Of a stretch of 39,503 nt of DNA, positions 17,054 through 28,083 are shown piece by piece. The first letter of the stretch is position 1; each line of letters begins with the position of its first letter. This DNA comes from a virus, in the IMG/VR virus record IMGVR_UViG_3300048442_000651, positions 1 to 39,503 of that record; one strand, given 5' to 3'. The position numbers were made by a program, and so were the translations under genes. The notes beneath the pieces were generated by a model. It was not told the DNA's origin. It was given only the letters and a program-made list of their open reading frames with translations, and did not search any database.

Positions 17054-18427
17054 TTAAATGGTAGAATCCTTCATTAAAAGCAATTCCGTAGTCATACTAG
17101 TACCATTTGTATCATGAGTCAAGCTAGCAATTAGATATCTACCACTATATCTACGGTCTACTTTAGGTGCCTTTCCAGATTTTGCTGTGGTAGGAATAAC
17201 AATATCAATTCCTGAACCAACATACAAATCCATATTTCCTGGAATAGTTATTTGTAGTTTAATAGTCTTCAGACTTTCAATCCTCATCCATTGGTATGCC
17301 TGGAGTTCTACGAGTGACTCATAATTTTTTTGAGGATTATCTTCAAATCTTTGATCAAAAATTTGATTCGGAAGAATTGTGTATCTAACTCTCTTTGGAT
17401 AATCAATTAATTGCTGAACTCCTTCATCCATAGAATTGATAATATTCTTATTACCACCATCTTTCAAGTGAGACATACTATTCCAGTATGTGTTGATATT
17501 ATAATAATGAGCATCTACAGAGATGTCTGTACTAATACCCATTTTAGATTGTGTAATGGTAGTTGGGTCAAATCCAATACTATAACCAGACCATGATCCA
17601 TGACGCAATCCCATCAAAAAGTTCTTTTCTTCAGGAAAAACTACAGTACTAATTCTATACTGGTCTGCAGCACCATCACCCTCTATATTTTTTGGTGCTT
17701 GAGTGTACTTATACAATCTTGGTTGTCCAGTATTGACATTAGTTTCTTTACTATCCTCCATGGAATTTGCATCATCAATCATCTTATCGATAGACTTGTA
17801 ATGATATCCCAATGCATTCTCAAAAAATGCAAATCCATTCTGCAATGAAGTACCTGATGTTTTACGAATAGATCTCTCAGTCATCCAGTAGATTGCATCA
17901 AATGGTCTCCAGTTAGGAATGATAAATTTGTGGTCATTTAATGTTTCTTCTAGATACAGTCTTTTTTTAGTCCCAATGTATCTGTTATTCTTTAATATAG
18001 TTTCAACAATCTGAGAAGTTTCAGTTTTATTCTTAAAGATAACATCAGTCATACCAAATATGTTTACTGCTTCATTCTTAATAAACTCATCTGATGCTAA
18101 GTTGATAATGTATAAATCAGTACCTTGATTTGTTCTAGCACGAGATAGGATAGTATATGAACGCATATAAAATGTTCGATCAATAATACTTCCTGTAACT
18201 TTCACCCTAAAAAGTTCGGATCCTGTGAAGGCATTAATCATGCCAGCAGAATCTTCAATAACGATCTTTGCTTCCATTGTGGCAGAAGTAATAGATTCAT
18301 ATACCTGAAATCCCCTAACAAAATCTTTGATGTCATATTCACCAGTGGGAGACTTTAATTTTTCACCGTCGCGAAAAATAGTTACGGAGATCTCTACATC
18401 CCCAGGATTTTCTCTAAAAATTGTCAT
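17054..18427 (-). CDS. gp27: Baseplate hub protein, gp27-like
   Basis: 457 aa, MTIFRENPGDVEISVTIFRDG. The pattern of an N-terminal beta domain (DFVRGFQVYESITSATMEAKI, FRVKVTGSIID), then LYIINLASDEFIKNEAVNIFG and NWRPFDAIYWMTERSI, and a mid-region with FAFFENALGYHYKSIDKM is that of tail hub proteins of the gp27/VgrG N-terminal class. Position between tape-measure-like genes and the gp5 spike supports this; in T4, gp27 and gp5 form the central hub. It is longer than T4 gp27 (391 aa). It overlaps the upstream stop by 4 bp (ATGA). Confidence 0.65.
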   Translation of the reverse strand: MTIFRENPGDVEISVTIFRDGEKLKSPTGEYDIKDFVRGFQVYESITSATMEAKIVIEDSAGMINAFTGSELFRVKVTGSIIDRTFYMRSYTILSRARTNQGTDLYIINLASDEFIKNEAVNIFGMTDVIFKNKTETSQIVETILKNNRYIGTKKRLYLEETLNDHKFIIPNWRPFDAIYWMTERSIRKTSGTSLQNGFAFFENALGYHYKSIDKMIDDANSMEDSKETNVNTGQPRLYKYTQAPKNIEGDGAADQYRISTVVFPEEKNFLMGLRHGSWSGYSIGFDPTTITQSKMGISTDISVDAHYYNINTYWNSMSHLKDGGNKNIINSMDEGVQQLIDYPKRVRYTILPNQIFDQRFEDNPQKNYESLVELQAYQWMRIESLKTIKLQITIPGNMDLYVGSGIDIVIPTTAKSGKAPKVDRRYSGRYLIASLTHDTNGTSMTTELLLMKDSTI

Positions 18428-21186
18428 TTGAAGATACCTTTAAGGGGATTATTTGTAGAACCAAGAAGAGCAGCAGCAGTTCCGACGAGAGCACCACCAA
18501 TGCCACGACCTCCAGAGTGACCTCCTCCATCGCCACCACCAACAACTACAGGAGGTCCAGGTCTACTTGCTACCATTGCGTTCTGAATCGCTGATGACGC
18601 TGCTGCAACCATCTCAGCGTTCATACCATTTACTTGTCCAACTTGTTCTATAACAGCACCTACCATCTCACGAGTCCTTTCAGTTATTTGGGTTTTTGCA
18701 TTATTACGATCTTGAGTGGATTGTGAAAGACTGCCTCGTCTTCCCCGACTCCTAATCTCTGCTTCGCGGTTACCATATGTATATCTTTGGTCACTTCTTC
18801 GTTGTCCTGCTACTGGTGCTGAGTATCCTCCAAGAATAGTTTTACCACCAGCACGCTGAGACCTAGGAGTTTCCATATCGAAACCAGAATTTGCTGCATA
18901 AGAAGAACCATAATCACCAGCACCATGACCGCCACCAGTACCACCATTTTCAATCTCGGCAATATGAGATTTTACACTGGCATTTCCTGCAGTATTGAAG
19001 AAGTGATTCTTGTACTTAACAACATTAACATTTTGAGACTCATCCTTAAACGCAGCACCAGTTCTAAATCCAGTTGATCCCATCAAATAATTAATATTCT
19101 CTGCACGCATACCCTCTGCCTCAAGATTACCCCTAAGACTTGTAGTATTTCTTGCCATCTCAATTGCATCTCTTGCCTGTGCCATCTGTGTACTAGTTCT
19201 TGCGTCATCAATTGATCCATTTTCTATAGGTTGATATTGACGCCTACCCATAATGACGCCAGTGACACTCTTATCATTTGCCATGAACATTCCCTTTCCA
19301 ACCTTACCAGATTGAATAAGTCCCGCACGATTCAATACACTGCGTGCTACCAATGCCATACCCAATTTACCCTCACTACCTGCCTCTGCAAGAACTAAAC
19401 GCTGCAATAAGTTATACTCACCACTATTAAGTTGTCCATTTGGTCCATTAGGACCACCAGCACCAGGTCCAGCTTCATTTAATATAGGAGGGTTTTTCAT
19501 ACCCATATACTTTTTCATCATTTGACGAAGTTTATCGCCACCTGTACCATCTTTATCAGATCCCTTTAACTTATGTAAGTCGGACCTTTCACCCGTACCA
19601 CCCCACCAAGTAGGACCATAGTTATCATGAGGTGACCTACCATCTTTATTCGACGCTGCTTCAGCGTGCGTCATAACATTTTTAATACTTACATCACCTG
19701 GTTTCCAACCCCAACCTTTAGCAATAGTTGCTGCTTCGGCAGTCATCGCCTCAAGTTGCTTTGGTTTGGGAGCATAAGCATTCCAATTGTAGTCTTTCAT
19801 TGCAGCAACTGAAAGACCTACATTTCCCGTGTTTCTATAATATGTGTGAGCAGTATGTTGGTCATAAGGGAGATGCTTATATAGAGAACCATCGCCCTGA
19901 ACAGTGGTATGATATGGACCATTTTTCCAGTTGTATCCACCTGCTGTCCAATGCATATAAATTTGCTTATTTAATCCACCTCCATTTGCAAAACTAGGAA
20001 GTCCACCACCTTGAGACATAAATTTAGACTCAGGTGCATAACTAGGCATAACATTCTTAGACATAGGAGTATCAAAACCCTTTCCTGGATTAAATCCACC
20101 TTGGAATGCATTCACCATTCCACCGATGTCAAATCCTTGACTCTGTGCTTCACCCATCCTTTTAGAAGTTAGATGGGGTTGCGTTTTTGTTCCAGGAGTA
20201 TTAAGAGGAACGACGAAAGCTCCCCCATTGCTCTTTCTAGCAACATATTCACGTCCGTGTCCGATGAACGAGGTTGATCTCCCCCCATCCAGTGATACGG
20301 GATATCCCGATTGTGGTCCATTAATAAATCCTCCTTGTGCTCTACCTGGAAGATTCTTTACTGAACCTCCTTGTGCAAACTCTTCATCCCCATCCCTATT
20401 ATTTAATGCATTGATGCCCATACCTGCACCAATTGCTATAGCAGTTCCAGTCGCCACCTTTGCAAGACCACCCCCCCTTCTACCAAGACGACCAGCACCA
20501 CGTCCACGAATAAGTGTAATCAGAGCTCTAACACCATTTGCAATATCAGTAATAATTTTAGTTGGATTTTTTAAGTATCTAAGACCCAATACAATTGAAC
20601 CAATACCAACAACTGCTTTACCAAATCCTAAAAGTCTCTCTTGCCACGTCGCATCATCTTTAAATAAATCATAAAGACCATCAATAGTAGTTGTAATACT
20701 AAATTTTGCCCAAGCTGCAATAAAGTTAATAACCTTCTTAATGACTTCTAAACCTGCAACAAGTGCTTCTTGATTTTTCGGATCACCCAACCATTTAAGG
20801 ACTGGAATGACAATTGCTATTTTGAATAAACCTCCAAATAACTTAAGAAGTCCTTCCAGAAAACTTCCACTTTTTGCTAAGAGGCCAGATACAAGACCAC
20901 CTTGCTTCTTTTGTTTTTGGGGTTTGTTATATTCTGCTTTAAATTTAGTTTTCTGAGATTGTTGTGCTTCTAAATTACTAAGGCTAACTTTTTTGAGATC
21001 TACAAGAACTTTAGCAAGAGAATTTACAGTATTTCCTAAGTTGTTGATTGCATGAGTATTCGTGTTTATTGACTTTGCTAAAGCAATATCCGATTTCGTC
21101 ACTTCAGGGTCAAGACTGCCCGAAGGATCTTTTACCTGTACGAACTTATAAAAATTAATTTTTGAATTTTTTTGTACAGTTGCCAT
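18424..21186 (-). CDS. Tape-measure-like protein with two peptidoglycan-hydrolase domains
   Basis: 920 aa. The N-terminus (about 1-220) has coiled-coil and hydrophobic helices and is paralogous to the 926-aa neighbour. About 405-545 is an amidase_2/PGRP-like domain: IYMHWTAGGYNW (first His), AHTYYRNTGNVGLSVAAM, then VMTHAEA and RSPHDNYGP (second His and probable Asp ligand). About 590-730 is a SleB/Hydrolase_2-like domain: LLQRLVLAEAGSEGKLGMAL, RSVLNR, VIMGRRQYQPIENG and KNHFFNTAG. The Gly-rich remainder ends LLGSTNNPLKGIFK. It is likely delivered through or mounted on the tail to open the cell wall, replacing T4 gp5 lysozyme (inference). Its start overlaps the upstream stop (TAATG). Confidence 0.75.
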   Translation of the reverse strand: MATVQKNSKINFYKFVQVKDPSGSLDPEVTKSDIALAKSINTNTHAINNLGNTVNSLAKVLVDLKKVSLSNLEAQQSQKTKFKAEYNKPQKQKKQGGLVSGLLAKSGSFLEGLLKLFGGLFKIAIVIPVLKWLGDPKNQEALVAGLEVIKKVINFIAAWAKFSITTTIDGLYDLFKDDATWQERLLGFGKAVVGIGSIVLGLRYLKNPTKIITDIANGVRALITLIRGRGAGRLGRRGGGLAKVATGTAIAIGAGMGINALNNRDGDEEFAQGGSVKNLPGRAQGGFINGPQSGYPVSLDGGRSTSFIGHGREYVARKSNGGAFVVPLNTPGTKTQPHLTSKRMGEAQSQGFDIGGMVNAFQGGFNPGKGFDTPMSKNVMPSYAPESKFMSQGGGLPSFANGGGLNKQIYMHWTAGGYNWKNGPYHTTVQGDGSLYKHLPYDQHTAHTYYRNTGNVGLSVAAMKDYNWNAYAPKPKQLEAMTAEAATIAKGWGWKPGDVSIKNVMTHAEAASNKDGRSPHDNYGPTWWGGTGERSDLHKLKGSDKDGTGGDKLRQMMKKYMGMKNPPILNEAGPGAGGPNGPNGQLNSGEYNLLQRLVLAEAGSEGKLGMALVARSVLNRAGLIQSGKVGKGMFMANDKSVTGVIMGRRQYQPIENGSIDDARTSTQMAQARDAIEMARNTTSLRGNLEAEGMRAENINYLMGSTGFRTGAAFKDESQNVNVVKYKNHFFNTAGNASVKSHIAEIENGGTGGGHGAGDYGSSYAANSGFDMETPRSQRAGGKTILGGYSAPVAGQRRSDQRYTYGNREAEIRSRGRRGSLSQSTQDRNNAKTQITERTREMVGAVIEQVGQVNGMNAEMVAAASSAIQNAMVASRPGPPVVVGGGDGGGHSGGRGIGGALVGTAAALLGSTNNPLKGIFK

Positions 21187-23966
21187 TATTGTGATCTCGT
21201 CGTTATGCTAGAAGGAGTCGCTCTAACTACTTCGCTACCACCAGTATTTATGGGAACAGCAGTAGGAATAGGCACCAACTTCTCAAGAATAACAGGAATG
21301 GGAATGAAGTCTAATGTCTGATTCATAGCATACTCAGCAGATATACCACCTTCAGACAATGCTTGAGATGCTACATTCTGTACCCCACCAATAACTTTAG
21401 GATCGACTCCTAGTTGTCCTGCTATCTCTCCCATAGCAGATGTCATATCTCCACCCATCGCACCAGTAACCGCATTATAAATGCCACCCAGTCCAAAGTG
21501 ACTTGCAGCACCTTGAATCATGTTCATAGGATTAAGTCCACCACTTAACATAGAACCAGCAAATTGTCCTATAGAAGGGTTAAGCATCCCAAGTCCAGTA
21601 CTCAAAGCACCTCCAAAGTTTCCACTCAATACACTAGATGCAATATTGCCAATGGGACCATTCATAAAATTACCAACTTGACCCATAATCCCACTTACGC
21701 CAGGAATCATTCCCAACATTGACATAGGATTGCCCGTAGCAAGTGTATTGATACCTGCCATAATAGGTGCAGCACCAGGAATAAACGATGCAGCAGTTCC
21801 AAGCACCTGTCCAACAGGACTTTGCATAACATTACTAACTGCATTACCTACACCTTTAAAAGCATTACCAACACTCTTAACTACACCACCAAGGAACATT
21901 TCTTGTTGAGGAACTTCTTGTCCTGTGATTTCTTGGAATGTATTTGGTCTATGTAAAAACTCCCAGATTGCAGGACCAGAGTTCCATACAGAACCAATAG
22001 TATCAAAGATTGGTTTGATACCTTTGTCATAAACATATCCTGGAAAATTACTAACAATTTTCCACGTTTCATCAATTGCCTTGATAGCAGGTTCAATATA
22101 TCCCATGATGGGATCAATAATCATCTCCCCAATTTCTTTTGTTTTTGCTATTGCTTGACTAATCTTTTTGCTAGTTGCAGCACCAACAGCTTTCATCATC
22201 TCAGGAATCTGTGTCAGTGGTGCTCCAAGCATCACTAACAATGAACCCAACTTGCTAAGTGCTTCTCTTGGTCTGAATCCTACTATAGCATCTCGGATTC
22301 CTTCAACTAAACCTCGGACTTTATTAAATGCCCACTGAATTGCTGATTCAGCAGAAGTTTTAATAATAGACATCAAAATAGGAGCACCCTCAGCAAAAAT
22401 TCGCCCAAGTCCTTTAGCACCAGATAGGATCGTGTCAAAGATAACTTTGACTAACTCTTGTGGACCATTAACAACATATTTTTGGAAGGCATCCCACATT
22501 GCTTCACGCCAGGGTTTCGAGACTTCCATCATATGGGTAAAGAAATCTGCTGCAGCACCAGAAGCATAATTCCACATGTTCATCATAGAGCCCCAGGCAC
22601 TACTCATAACATCTTTACCGATGTTTAAGAATGTTTCCCAGGCACCTGCCCAGAAATCTCCATTCATAATATAGTCATTCCAAAGAGACTTCATACCACT
22701 GACAAGTTTCTTGCCCATAGCACCAAGGTCAGCACCTAAGTTTGCCTTACCTAGCATCATGTCATATAAGTATCCGCCGATTGCCTCACCTGCAATGCCA
22801 CCAAGCATTGCACCAACAAATGCACCTAAAGGTATTGTAATGGGTGCTGCAGGACCGCCCAGAGCACCTATAGCGCCACCTGCCCAACCACCTAAGAATG
22901 TACCAATACCATCACCAATACCCATCATGAGTGATTTGGCGATAGACTCACCCATGATCCAGTTCAATGCAGCAGTCAGTAAACCACTTATAAGTGGTAA
23001 CTTAAATGCGCCGATTAATTTCTTCAATCCTTTTACGCCACCTCTTCCAATAACTTTCAGGAAGAAACGATGCGTTGCCTTAGATATATTTTTACCACCA
23101 TATTTAAAAACCTGTCCAGTAGCTTTCTTACCAACCTGTTCACCAGTTGTTTCAGTAGCTTCTTTAGTGGCAAGCTTTCGTGCTTGCTCTAATTGGAAAG
23201 GAGATAGTTTAGGACTAGGTTTTACTGTTGGTTTTACACCTGGTTTTACACCTGGTTTTGTTGGTTTTTTTGGTTTATCGGGACCATCAAGAAGATCTCG
23301 CGCATCAAGAAGGTCTCGAATACCACCTGCTGCTGCAATTATTCCAGAAATACCACCGATTGCAAGAGCAATTTTACCGAACGCATCAAGACGTTGACCA
23401 ATAGTCGTCTCTTTACCAAAGATAAAATCTAGACCAGAAGTAAAGGCATTATAAATGCTCATCGCAAAGTCTTTTAACTTATCAAAAACGAAAAGTGTTT
23501 TATCTAAGAATAATTTAATCTTCTCAATATTCTCAGGATTACCTAGATAATTTAAAAGTTCTAGACCAAGAGTAAATGTAGCAAGTTTTACTAATAATCC
23601 ACCAAGAGGACTAAGGAATTTTTCAATCGTTCCAAAAATACCCTTAGTGCCTTTCTTTACCTTTTCACCTAACCTTGATTTCTCATTAGCTCCTTCTTTT
23701 TTTAATGCTTTCGCTTCTTGCTTAGTTTCAGAAGAAGAATCTTTCTCTCTACGCTTACTTCTTCTTTCTGCTTTTTCAGTCTCTTTCTTACTCTTAACTG
23801 TTAAGGTGGAGATTTTCCCCAAATCACTAACTACACTCGATAAAGAGCTAACTGTAGTACCAAGACGATTAAATGCTAACGTCTGTACTTTTGCAGCAGA
23901 AATTGCTGGAGTAGTAATCGACGATACTCCAGGATTGACTAGTTTATATGGTTGTAGTTTAGCCAC
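21186..23966 (-). CDS. Tape-measure-like tail protein
   Basis: 926 aa with a GTG start (MAKLQPYKLVNPGVSSITTP). Residues about 60-110 are a strongly charged Lys/Glu coiled-coil. Then come alternating hydrophobic helices (GGLLVKLATFTLGLELLNYL, LGGWAGGAIGALGG) and a Gly/Met-rich C-terminal third with repeated GNPMSMLGMIPG-like units. A short Lys-Pro repeat (KPGVKPGVKPTVKPSPK) forms a linker near residue 245. Long helical, Gly/Ala-rich proteins directly after a chaperone-like pair are typical tape measures; T4 uses gp29 (590 aa). It overlaps the preceding small frame by 8 bp. Length determination by this protein is inference. Confidence 0.65.
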   Translation of the reverse strand: MAKLQPYKLVNPGVSSITTPAISAAKVQTLAFNRLGTTVSSLSSVVSDLGKISTLTVKSKKETEKAERRSKRREKDSSSETKQEAKALKKEGANEKSRLGEKVKKGTKGIFGTIEKFLSPLGGLLVKLATFTLGLELLNYLGNPENIEKIKLFLDKTLFVFDKLKDFAMSIYNAFTSGLDFIFGKETTIGQRLDAFGKIALAIGGISGIIAAAGGIRDLLDARDLLDGPDKPKKPTKPGVKPGVKPTVKPSPKLSPFQLEQARKLATKEATETTGEQVGKKATGQVFKYGGKNISKATHRFFLKVIGRGGVKGLKKLIGAFKLPLISGLLTAALNWIMGESIAKSLMMGIGDGIGTFLGGWAGGAIGALGGPAAPITIPLGAFVGAMLGGIAGEAIGGYLYDMMLGKANLGADLGAMGKKLVSGMKSLWNDYIMNGDFWAGAWETFLNIGKDVMSSAWGSMMNMWNYASGAAADFFTHMMEVSKPWREAMWDAFQKYVVNGPQELVKVIFDTILSGAKGLGRIFAEGAPILMSIIKTSAESAIQWAFNKVRGLVEGIRDAIVGFRPREALSKLGSLLVMLGAPLTQIPEMMKAVGAATSKKISQAIAKTKEIGEMIIDPIMGYIEPAIKAIDETWKIVSNFPGYVYDKGIKPIFDTIGSVWNSGPAIWEFLHRPNTFQEITGQEVPQQEMFLGGVVKSVGNAFKGVGNAVSNVMQSPVGQVLGTAASFIPGAAPIMAGINTLATGNPMSMLGMIPGVSGIMGQVGNFMNGPIGNIASSVLSGNFGGALSTGLGMLNPSIGQFAGSMLSGGLNPMNMIQGAASHFGLGGIYNAVTGAMGGDMTSAMGEIAGQLGVDPKVIGGVQNVASQALSEGGISAEYAMNQTLDFIPIPVILEKLVPIPTAVPINTGGSEVVRATPSSITTRSQ

Positions 23967-24168
23967 CTGCTGCTTGCTGCTCCTTCATTCTACGTTCTTC
24001 TTCTTTTAAGAATTGTATTAACAAATTCACATAAATTTCTTTTTCCCAAGGCATCAGATTATCGATATGTTCGATACTCCATTTATGGTGATGCATCAGT
24101 GCAAAGTTACCTTCATAATAAGAACGGAGATTGTTGTGAAGGAGTGCTATGCGAAAAAACTCGCTAAT
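23959..24168 (-). CDS. Small gp51-position ORF, probably reached by -1 frameshift from gp26
   Basis: Up to 69 codons between a TGA and TAA at 23959, reading ISEFFRIALLHNNLRSYYEG, then LMHHHKWSIEHIDNLMPW and a Glu/Lys/Gln-rich end (KEEERRMKEQQAAGG). The upstream part has no ATG, GTG or TTG: the position where a start is expected is ATT (24166-24168), with GAGGG directly against it, too close to act as its Shine-Dalgarno. The first ATG in frame is at residue 25. The frame is the -1 frame of gp26 and begins over its last codons. In T4, gene 51 (hub assembly) follows gene 26, the same position. It is very likely a real protein part; how translation enters is the open question. Confidence 0.7.
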   Translation of the reverse strand: MSEFFRIALLHNNLRSYYEGNFALMHHHKWSIEHIDNLMPWEKEIYVNLLIQFLKEEERRMKEQQAAGG

Positions 24169-24857
24169 CCCTCAAGAACAATTTCAGATTCAACCCCAGT
24201 ATTAGGATTGGTTACTTGTACCTTATGCAACAATTTAGGCATAGTTTCAAAGAATTTTTGAAGTTCTCCAAACTGTTTGCTACTCAGTTGATCAAGAAAT
24301 TCTAAAATTTCTGATTTTGGTAAATCTTTACATTCATAGATTTGATTGGTATCAGCAATAGTTTCAATACAACCTGCTGCCATTTCAAAAATCTGGTCAA
24401 TTTGATTGGTATCTTCCCCAAAATTCGACTCTACAAAAGATTCGAGATTGGGATATCCCATAGTAACGGCAATCTCAGCGTCAAGTTTTAATTCTTTTTT
24501 ATGACCTCTAGTCTTTACGACCTTAATTTCATCCAAAGGAATCGAAACCTCAACCTCAGTTTCTCCATCATCAGGACAAGTCACTGTCACATCAACGTTT
24601 TCACCAACAGATTTTGTACGAATTTGTAAGAACAAATATTCAATATCAAATGTTGCTAGTTTATCAACTGAAGCAATATCAGTACATTCTGTAATGATGT
24701 TTTTGATTGCACCAATAATCTCTTCTTGCTCTCCCGTTTCTGTAGCGAGGAGAAGTAACTTCTCTTCTTTAACAAGAAATGGTCTATAGTTCACATTTCT
24801 ACCATCAGATGGCAGTTTCAGTTTGTACTTAGGTACATTTAATTTAGGTAATGCCAT
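24147..24857 (-). CDS. gp26: Baseplate hub assembly protein gp26
   Basis: 236 aa, MALPKLNVPKYKLKLPSDGR then NYRPFLVKEEKLLLLATETG and FDIEYLFLQIRTKSVGENVD. This is the T4_gp26 family pattern (T4 gp26 is 208 aa), including the CPDDGE segment. gp26 acts in central baseplate hub assembly. Its last codons are S-F-F-A-stop, and the FF codons form a T_TTT_TTC slippery heptamer. A -1 shift there would give a product of about 299 aa with the small downstream frame. A late promoter lies 22 bp upstream. Good confidence on identity. Confidence 0.88.
   Translation of the reverse strand: MALPKLNVPKYKLKLPSDGRNVNYRPFLVKEEKLLLLATETGEQEEIIGAIKNIITECTDIASVDKLATFDIEYLFLQIRTKSVGENVDVTVTCPDDGETEVEVSIPLDEIKVVKTRGHKKELKLDAEIAVTMGYPNLESFVESNFGEDTNQIDQIFEMAAGCIETIADTNQIYECKDLPKSEILEFLDQLSSKQFGELQKFFETMPKLLHKVQVTNPNTGVESEIVLEGLASFFA
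24153..24173 (-). promoter_or_regulatory. Candidate -1 frameshift signal (GAGGG ... T_TTT_TTC)
   Basis: On the minus strand GAGGG (24173-24169) is followed after 9 nt by the heptamer T_TTT_TTC (24159-24153) in the correct gp26 phase, one codon before the gp26 stop. This copies the layout of the E. coli dnaX frameshift, where an SD-like sequence about 10 nt upstream stimulates slippage. I found no clear downstream pseudoknot by eye. Confidence 0.6.
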
Positions 24858-27144: not shown

Positions 27145-28083
27145 ATGGCATCTTATTTTTCCTATTTTCCAAATGTATATGTTGGTGAAGGCGTAACCTC
27201 TAATGAGGGGTTCAAATATCGTCTCACAAAAAACATATTCCGTAGAGTTAAAGCAAGAGACGACTTAGATCGATATGTCACATCGTTTGAAGCGTATTCT
27301 ATTCGAGATGGAGAAACCCCTTCATTTCTTGCAAATAGTCTATATGGAGATCCTTTCTTAGATTGGGTTATCCTTCTCTCTAATAATATTACAGATTTCT
27401 ATAGTCAGTGGCCAAAATCTGAAGATAATCTGCAAAAATTTGTATCAGAATCATATGCAGATCCTGATTCTATTCATCATTATGAAACAAATGAAATTAT
27501 GTACGAAGATATCGTTTACATTAAAAAGGGTATTGACGTAAATGCTGGTTTTAGAGCTACCATGCCCGATGGTTCAATCAAAACTGAAGAAGAGTCTAGA
27601 TATCCTGTATCAAACTATGAGTATGAAAATTACCTGAACGAACAAAAAAGATTGATTGGAATTCCTAATGGAATTATGGTTGATCTCATGAAAGAAGAGA
27701 TGTCTTCTCTTCTTGAGTATCAATTACATTCTGAAGTTGATAAATTTGGAAATAAGAAAACAGAAATGAGTATGGCATCTAGATTTATTACTAATGACAC
27801 TAGCGTCACTGGTAGTGGAAGTCGTACAATTGCTAATAATGATGTTGTGACCTCATTTGATAATGGTCCTAGCGCATCAGGCACTACGTTAGCAGGTGTA
27901 GCAGGTACAGTAAGTTCTACAGCAGCAGCAACAGTATCAACTACTACAACAACGTCTGCCTCCAGTAGTAGTTCTAGTTCTTCTAGTAGCAGCAGTTCCA
28001 GTTCTTCTAGTAGCAGTAGTAGCAGCAGTTCTAGTTCCTCCAGTAGTTCAGGTTCTAGTGGTGGAGGATATGGAGGATACTAA
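27145..28083 (+). CDS. gp53: Baseplate wedge protein gp53 with poly-serine tail
   Basis: 312 aa against 196 aa in T4. Residues about 1-215 match gp53: YFSYFPNVYVGEGV, then PSFLANSLYGDPFLDWVILL with SNNITDFYSQWP, and a helical end. Residues about 216-312 are an added Thr/Ala/Ser low-complexity tail that contains 30 serines in a row (27961-28050) and ends GSSGGGYGGY. The serines use TCC, TCT, TCA, AGT and AGC codons mixed. gp53 joins baseplate wedges; the tail is likely exposed. It starts 1 bp after the gp48 stop. Confidence 0.88.
   Translation: MASYFSYFPNVYVGEGVTSNEGFKYRLTKNIFRRVKARDDLDRYVTSFEAYSIRDGETPSFLANSLYGDPFLDWVILLSNNITDFYSQWPKSEDNLQKFVSESYADPDSIHHYETNEIMYEDIVYIKKGIDVNAGFRATMPDGSIKTEEESRYPVSNYEYENYLNEQKRLIGIPNGIMVDLMKEEMSSLLEYQLHSEVDKFGNKKTEMSMASRFITNDTSVTGSGSRTIANNDVVTSFDNGPSASGTTLAGVAGTVSSTAAATVSTTTTTSASSSSSSSSSSSSSSSSSSSSSSSSSSSSSSGSSGGGYGGY
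27961..28050 (+). repeat. Poly-serine-encoding tract
   Basis: Thirty consecutive Ser codons at the end of gp53, mainly AGT, with TCT, AGC, TCC and TCA interspersed. The codon pattern is irregular, not a pure triplet repeat. Confidence 0.9.

Follow-up and report, generated by a model that had tools for sequence, protein, structure and literature searches.

A gp26-family gene of an uncultivated cyanophage very probably yields a short and a -1-frameshifted long tail assembly chaperone

In phage lambda the tail assembly chaperones (TAC) gpG and gpGT are a short protein and its -1-frameshifted long form, encoded just upstream of the tape measure gene. In T4-like phages the TAC genes were reportedly identified by Vladimirov, Gautam and Davidson in Virology in 2022; their abstract reportedly describes frameshifting as a conserved trait of several groups of T4-like phages, with T4 using genes 26 and 51. 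A review from 2016 describes G-T frameshifting as conserved in long-tailed phages "except T4" (PMC5009743). Passages of two papers citing Vladimirov 2022 mention poly-T slippery sites in T4-like TAC-N genes (PMC12846349) and, for some T4-like phages, a pair of genes instead, one short and the other long and fused (PMC10885494). The gp51 of cyanophages has about 20% of the usual gp51 length, the first ~200 residues being missing (PMC3037559). Here we analyse a gp26-family gene and the gp51 frame that overlaps its end in a DNA stretch of 39,503 nucleotides (nt), the whole of which is called the window, from the virus record IMGVR_UViG_3300048442_000651 of IMG/VR. The virus is nearest to the S-RIM12 and Syn33 cyanophages. 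We conclude that it very probably makes two gp26 forms, a TAC-N/TAC-NC pair, by -1 frameshifting at the sequence T_TTT_TTC.

The arrangement resembles that of lambda gpG/gpGT, whereas the sequences are unrelated and the heptamer T_TTT_TTC is not the lambda site. All coordinates are window positions, and the gp26 locus is read on the minus strand. The features are as follows.

24147-24857, minus strand: gp26-family gene, short form (TAC-N), 236 amino acids (aa); PF12322 (T4_baseplate), PHROG 150
24153-24159, minus strand: slippery heptamer T_TTT_TTC in the gp26 frame; 96/96 close relatives, and 79/79 divergent ones as T_TTT_TT[C/T/A]
24169-24173, minus strand: GAGGG, a Shine-Dalgarno-like sequence that may stimulate slippage, 9 nt upstream of the heptamer
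24147-24149, minus strand: gp26 0-frame TAG stop, one codon past the heptamer; TAG in 96/96 close relatives
23959-24159, minus strand: -1 frame (TAC-C) from the slippery codons to TAA; 64 further aa after S-F-F; homologue of the gp51 C-terminus
24094-24096, minus strand: internal ATG; database gp51 open reading frames (ORFs) begin at the matching ATG, e.g. in Syn33
21186-23966, minus strand: 926-aa tape-measure-like downstream gene; PHROG790 and PHROG167 matches

The product of the gp26-family gene matches PF12322 with 257 bits (E 1.9e-76; curated cut-off 24.5 bits) and PHROG150 with 7.1e-90. Its gene ends in GTT CTT GAG GGA TTA GCG AGT TTT TTC GCA TAG, that is S-F-F-A-stop, and the heptamer lies at 24159-24153, as the original prediction had read it. 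The -1 frame (GAG TTT TTT CGC ATA GCA CTC ...) is open from 24171 to the TAA at 23961-23959. A slip on T_TTT_TTC gives a fusion of 235 + 64 = 299 aa, which bears out the predicted length of about 299. The -1 frame matches PHROG634, "baseplate hub assembly catalyst" (gp51), with 1.2e-33. The beginning of the frame matches, in addition, the last part of the PHROG150 profile (positions 227-277), and thus some family members are a single fused chain. In-frame T_TTT_TTC occurs once in the 11,032 codons of the main genes of the window, 13 nt from the gp26 end.

We compared 175 junctions in total. The close set comprises 96 distinct junctions of close relatives, the window's own included, and the divergent set comprises 79 junctions from IMG/VR with 44-66% identity to the nearer query. 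In all 96 close junctions TTTTTTC begins 10 nt ahead of TAG and the gp51 frame lies in -1. The divergent junctions have T_TTT_TTC (61), T_TTT_TTT (12) or T_TTT_TTA (6), and 79/79 likewise have their gp51 frame in -1. The heptamer for which the original prediction suggested a search in relatives is therefore universal in both sets. The 0-frame stop of the divergent junctions is found anywhere from the codon right after the heptamer to 8 codons beyond it, which shows that the conserved position is that of the heptamer rather than that of the stop. The heptamer is also present in Pelagibacter phage Mosig, P-HM1, S-CRM01, S-CREM2, C48C1, Vibrio R11Z, Cronobacter S13, Aeromonas PX29, pf16, Stenotrophomonas Ps15, ORM_20 and Desulfovibrio 7757, and phiM9 has T_TTT_TTG. 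Taken by host, the matching layout is found in phages of Pelagibacter, Vibrio, Aeromonas, Cronobacter, Pseudomonas, Stenotrophomonas, Sinorhizobium, Ochrobactrum and Desulfovibrio. The two Phe codons of the heptamer show 0 synonymous changes in the 96 sequences, against an expected codon identity of 0.58; elsewhere in the 96 gp26 genes TTT is the commoner Phe codon (826 TTT to 307 TTC). It should be noted that this constraint is partly shared between the frames, because the C of the heptamer also opens the following -1 codon.

The second frame has no conserved start codon among the relatives, so that both sequence comparisons suggested in the original prediction favour frameshifting. In the window the only candidate at its beginning is the ATT at 24168-24166, as predicted, and the first ATG, GTG or TTG is the ATG at 24096. 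Ahead of the heptamer, the -1 frame of all 96 close junctions is free of ATG, GTG and TTG. In 13 relatives (4 of the close set, 9 of the divergent set) a -1-frame stop stands directly 5' of the T run, so that the frame can be entered there solely at the run. The first common ATG follows 63 nt past the heptamer start. Between the gp26 stop and this ATG the ratio of non-synonymous to synonymous substitution rates (dN/dS) is 0.086 in the -1 frame, which is comparable to that of gp26 itself (0.117); the two other frames give 1.7 and 2.6. Based on the missing upstream start, the 5' stops and the purifying selection in the -1 frame, -1 ribosomal frameshifting is the only economical explanation.

Public records of cyanophages such as Syn33 treat gp51 as a protein in its own right, with 45 aa counted from the internal ATG (24096), which is found in 81/96 close junctions. 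We consider this reading very unlikely. The 16 codons ahead of the ATG are under selection as strong as that on gp26, the ATG is missing in 15/96, and a Shine-Dalgarno-like core lies upstream of it in just 15/81. Such a start would leave the invariant heptamer unexplained, and T4 gp51 carries the whole gp26-like domain fused to its C-tail. It is conceivable that the internal ATG is used alongside frameshifting.

A small separate gp51 gene, translationally coupled to gp26 and initiated close to the gp26 stop at AUU, the alternative raised in the original prediction, or at a different non-AUG codon, is hardly credible. ATT does stand at the natural beginning of the -1 frame in the window and in 52/96 junctions, and in some distant phages the stop overlaps with an ATG (TAATG or TGATG). 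However, 40/96 close junctions have none of ATT, ATC, ATA and CTG at the beginning of the -1 frame, the 13 relatives with a stop directly ahead of the heptamer could not use such a start, and what stays invariant is the heptamer. Transcriptional slippage, by which the homopolymeric T run would give a -1 message, is also very unlikely: the run is just 6 T long in the 96 close relatives and is kept in codon register as X_XXY_YYZ. Runs of 8-9 or more are usually needed for this process.

Phage T4 differs from the window in having two separate, divergently transcribed genes and no slippery site (GTTCTTT). T4 gp51 (249 aa) matches PF12322 over residues 1-201, PHROG150 over 13-280 of its 282 positions, and PHROG634 with 1.2e-23. 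Since it matches both PHROG150 and PHROG634, it is the uninterrupted counterpart of the cyanophage fusion. T4 gp26 gives the gp26-family match without the C-tail. Judged by these profile matches, T4 gp26 is the counterpart of the short form and T4 gp51 the counterpart of the whole fusion, and T4 would obtain the same pair from separate genes, gene 26 for the short and gene 51 for the long protein. A tree of the shared domain places both proteins of the T4 type, short and long, in one group (97/92), apart from all frameshift types. This suggests that one duplication may have replaced frameshifting in the T4 type; the tree is consistent with it and has long branches, which call for caution. T4 gp51 can also be described as a gp26 paralogue with an extra C-tail, and RB43 has the two genes in tandem.

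The gp26 model has a predicted local distance difference test (pLDDT) score of 87.6. For residues 1-84 of the model the best of 999 aligned PDB chains was the HK97 tail assembly chaperone 2OB9, a chain of 107 residues without a sequence match to gp26. The match has Z 7.6 over 83 of the 107 residues, a root mean square deviation of 4.1 A and 10% identity; the next chain has Z 5.3. Among the chains listed by Foldseek, 2OB9 likewise ranks first in probability (0.54), at an E-value that is not significant. A PDB sequence search with the family profile gave no match. With 236 aa, gp26 is larger than its lambda counterpart, and its model has extra beta-rich parts. The analogy to gpG/gpGT drawn in the original prediction draws support from the position, from the predicted fold of the N-domain and from T4 gp51 as a natural full-length fusion. 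We suggest that the locus belongs to the gpG/gpGT (TAC-N/TAC-NC) class, in view of its size pair and frameshift site and, more tentatively, of its position before a tape-measure-like gene and its predicted fold.

We propose the following mechanism. The analysis gives the sequence, its conservation, the selection and the homology; the slippage, its efficiency and the chaperone action are inferred. In brief, most ribosomes would stop at the gp26 TAG, and their product would be TAC-N, the short chaperone of 236 aa that corresponds to lambda gpG. A smaller share, with tRNA-Phe occupying both the P and the A site on UUU UUC, would slip back 1 nt on U_UUU_UUC and read the overlapping frame into TAC-NC, a fusion of 299 aa that corresponds to gpGT; the stretch annotated as gp51 lies within its last 64 residues. 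By homology, both forms would coat the tape measure protein encoded by the next gene, the C-tail of the long form would recruit tail tube or hub components, and neither form would end up in the virion.

Several observations weigh against this picture. Searches with the model of T4-type gp51 (Foldseek, VIA-align) gave no clear TAC match among the matches listed. The -1 frame does end at a tape-measure-like gene, as predicted, in that the GTG start (23966) of the 926-aa gene overlaps its end, but the tape-measure identity comes from a secondary PHROG match. The best match of the 926-aa protein is PHROG790 (4e-265), labelled endolysin, and PHROG167, tail length tape measure, follows with 8.8e-13. 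The GAGGG at 24173-24169, which the original prediction likened to the E. coli dnaX stimulator, lies 9 nt upstream as stated and has the strongest anti-Shine-Dalgarno pairing within 60 nt upstream of the heptamer (mean -6.6 kcal/mol). Synonymous-codon controls that keep Glu-Gly reach -5.7 kcal/mol, so that GAGGG is barely better (~0.9 kcal/mol) and the purines are mostly set by the Glu-Gly codons. Neither GAGGG nor the ATT is invariant among the relatives, and GAAGG occurs in place of GAGGG. We found no conserved 3' stem-loop after the heptamer (alifold -1.2 kcal/mol), and the 53 nt that follow it have a mean folding z of -1.16, compared to -0.5 to -1.1 in control windows. The comparison to dnaX is therefore plausible for the upstream element only, and GAGGG is weakly supported as a dnaX-like stimulator.

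In Ackermannviridae and related Vibrio and Aeromonas phages the gp26-family gene and its C-tail likewise overlap in -1, with a site of the form NTT_TTY_NNN(_NNN)_stop and no heptamer, although the gene has a full heptamer in other phages. The phages in question are CRW-SP2, AV101, GG32, phiMAM1, RCIP0012, Kuja, Vibrio D532/K382/K452 and TSW001. Some of them have an ATG that overlaps the stop. In 5 of the 9 examined, GG32, RCIP0012, phiMAM1, Kuja and TSW001, the second frame runs for 9 residues or more before any standard start. There is about an even chance that these phages use frameshifting on a minimal U_UUY tetramer or some other coupling mechanism. A scan of viral contigs with an Ackermannviridae query found no relative, and a search of the accessible literature found no treatment of the NTT_TTY arrangement.

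The endolysin label of PHROG790 looks doubtful, the other matches of the 926-aa protein being to glycine zipper and tape-measure families. The next gene, at 18424-21186 on the minus strand, encodes a 920-aa protein with an Amidase_2 domain and a sub-threshold Hydrolase_2 match, and its N-terminal part matches some PHROGs in common with the upstream 926-aa protein. At 27145-28083 on the plus strand there is a 312-aa ORF that ends in a long poly-serine run followed by a Gly-Tyr tail; the run is possibly a low-complexity or an assembly feature.

In public cyanophage genomes gp51 is given as a 45-aa ORF from the internal ATG, with the conserved preceding residues left out, and several records do not list it as a gene. 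The claim in the original prediction that T4-like cyanophages make their gp26/gp51 pair by frameshifting is supported here, but is not new (Vladimirov, Gautam & Davidson 2022). As the TAC genes of T4-like phages had been identified by 2022, the novelty is modest, and what we describe is a well-supported new example of a known mechanism, from an uncultivated cyanophage. What is added is the depth of the evidence for the cyanophage and Pelagibacter type, and the ruling out of AUU and of the internal ATG as the principal way into the second frame. The small ORF annotated as gp51 in cyanophages very probably represents the C-terminal tail of the frameshifted gp26 product, and many database records carry this truncated annotation. 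The shortness of cyanophage gp51 noted earlier (PMC3037559) would then be explained by the frameshift. The finding supports the view that T4 gp26, described as a hub component, and gp51, described as an "assembly catalyst", are the short and the long tail assembly chaperones, made from two genes. It settles, for abundant marine myoviruses, the reading of two T4-type genes that have long been confusing.

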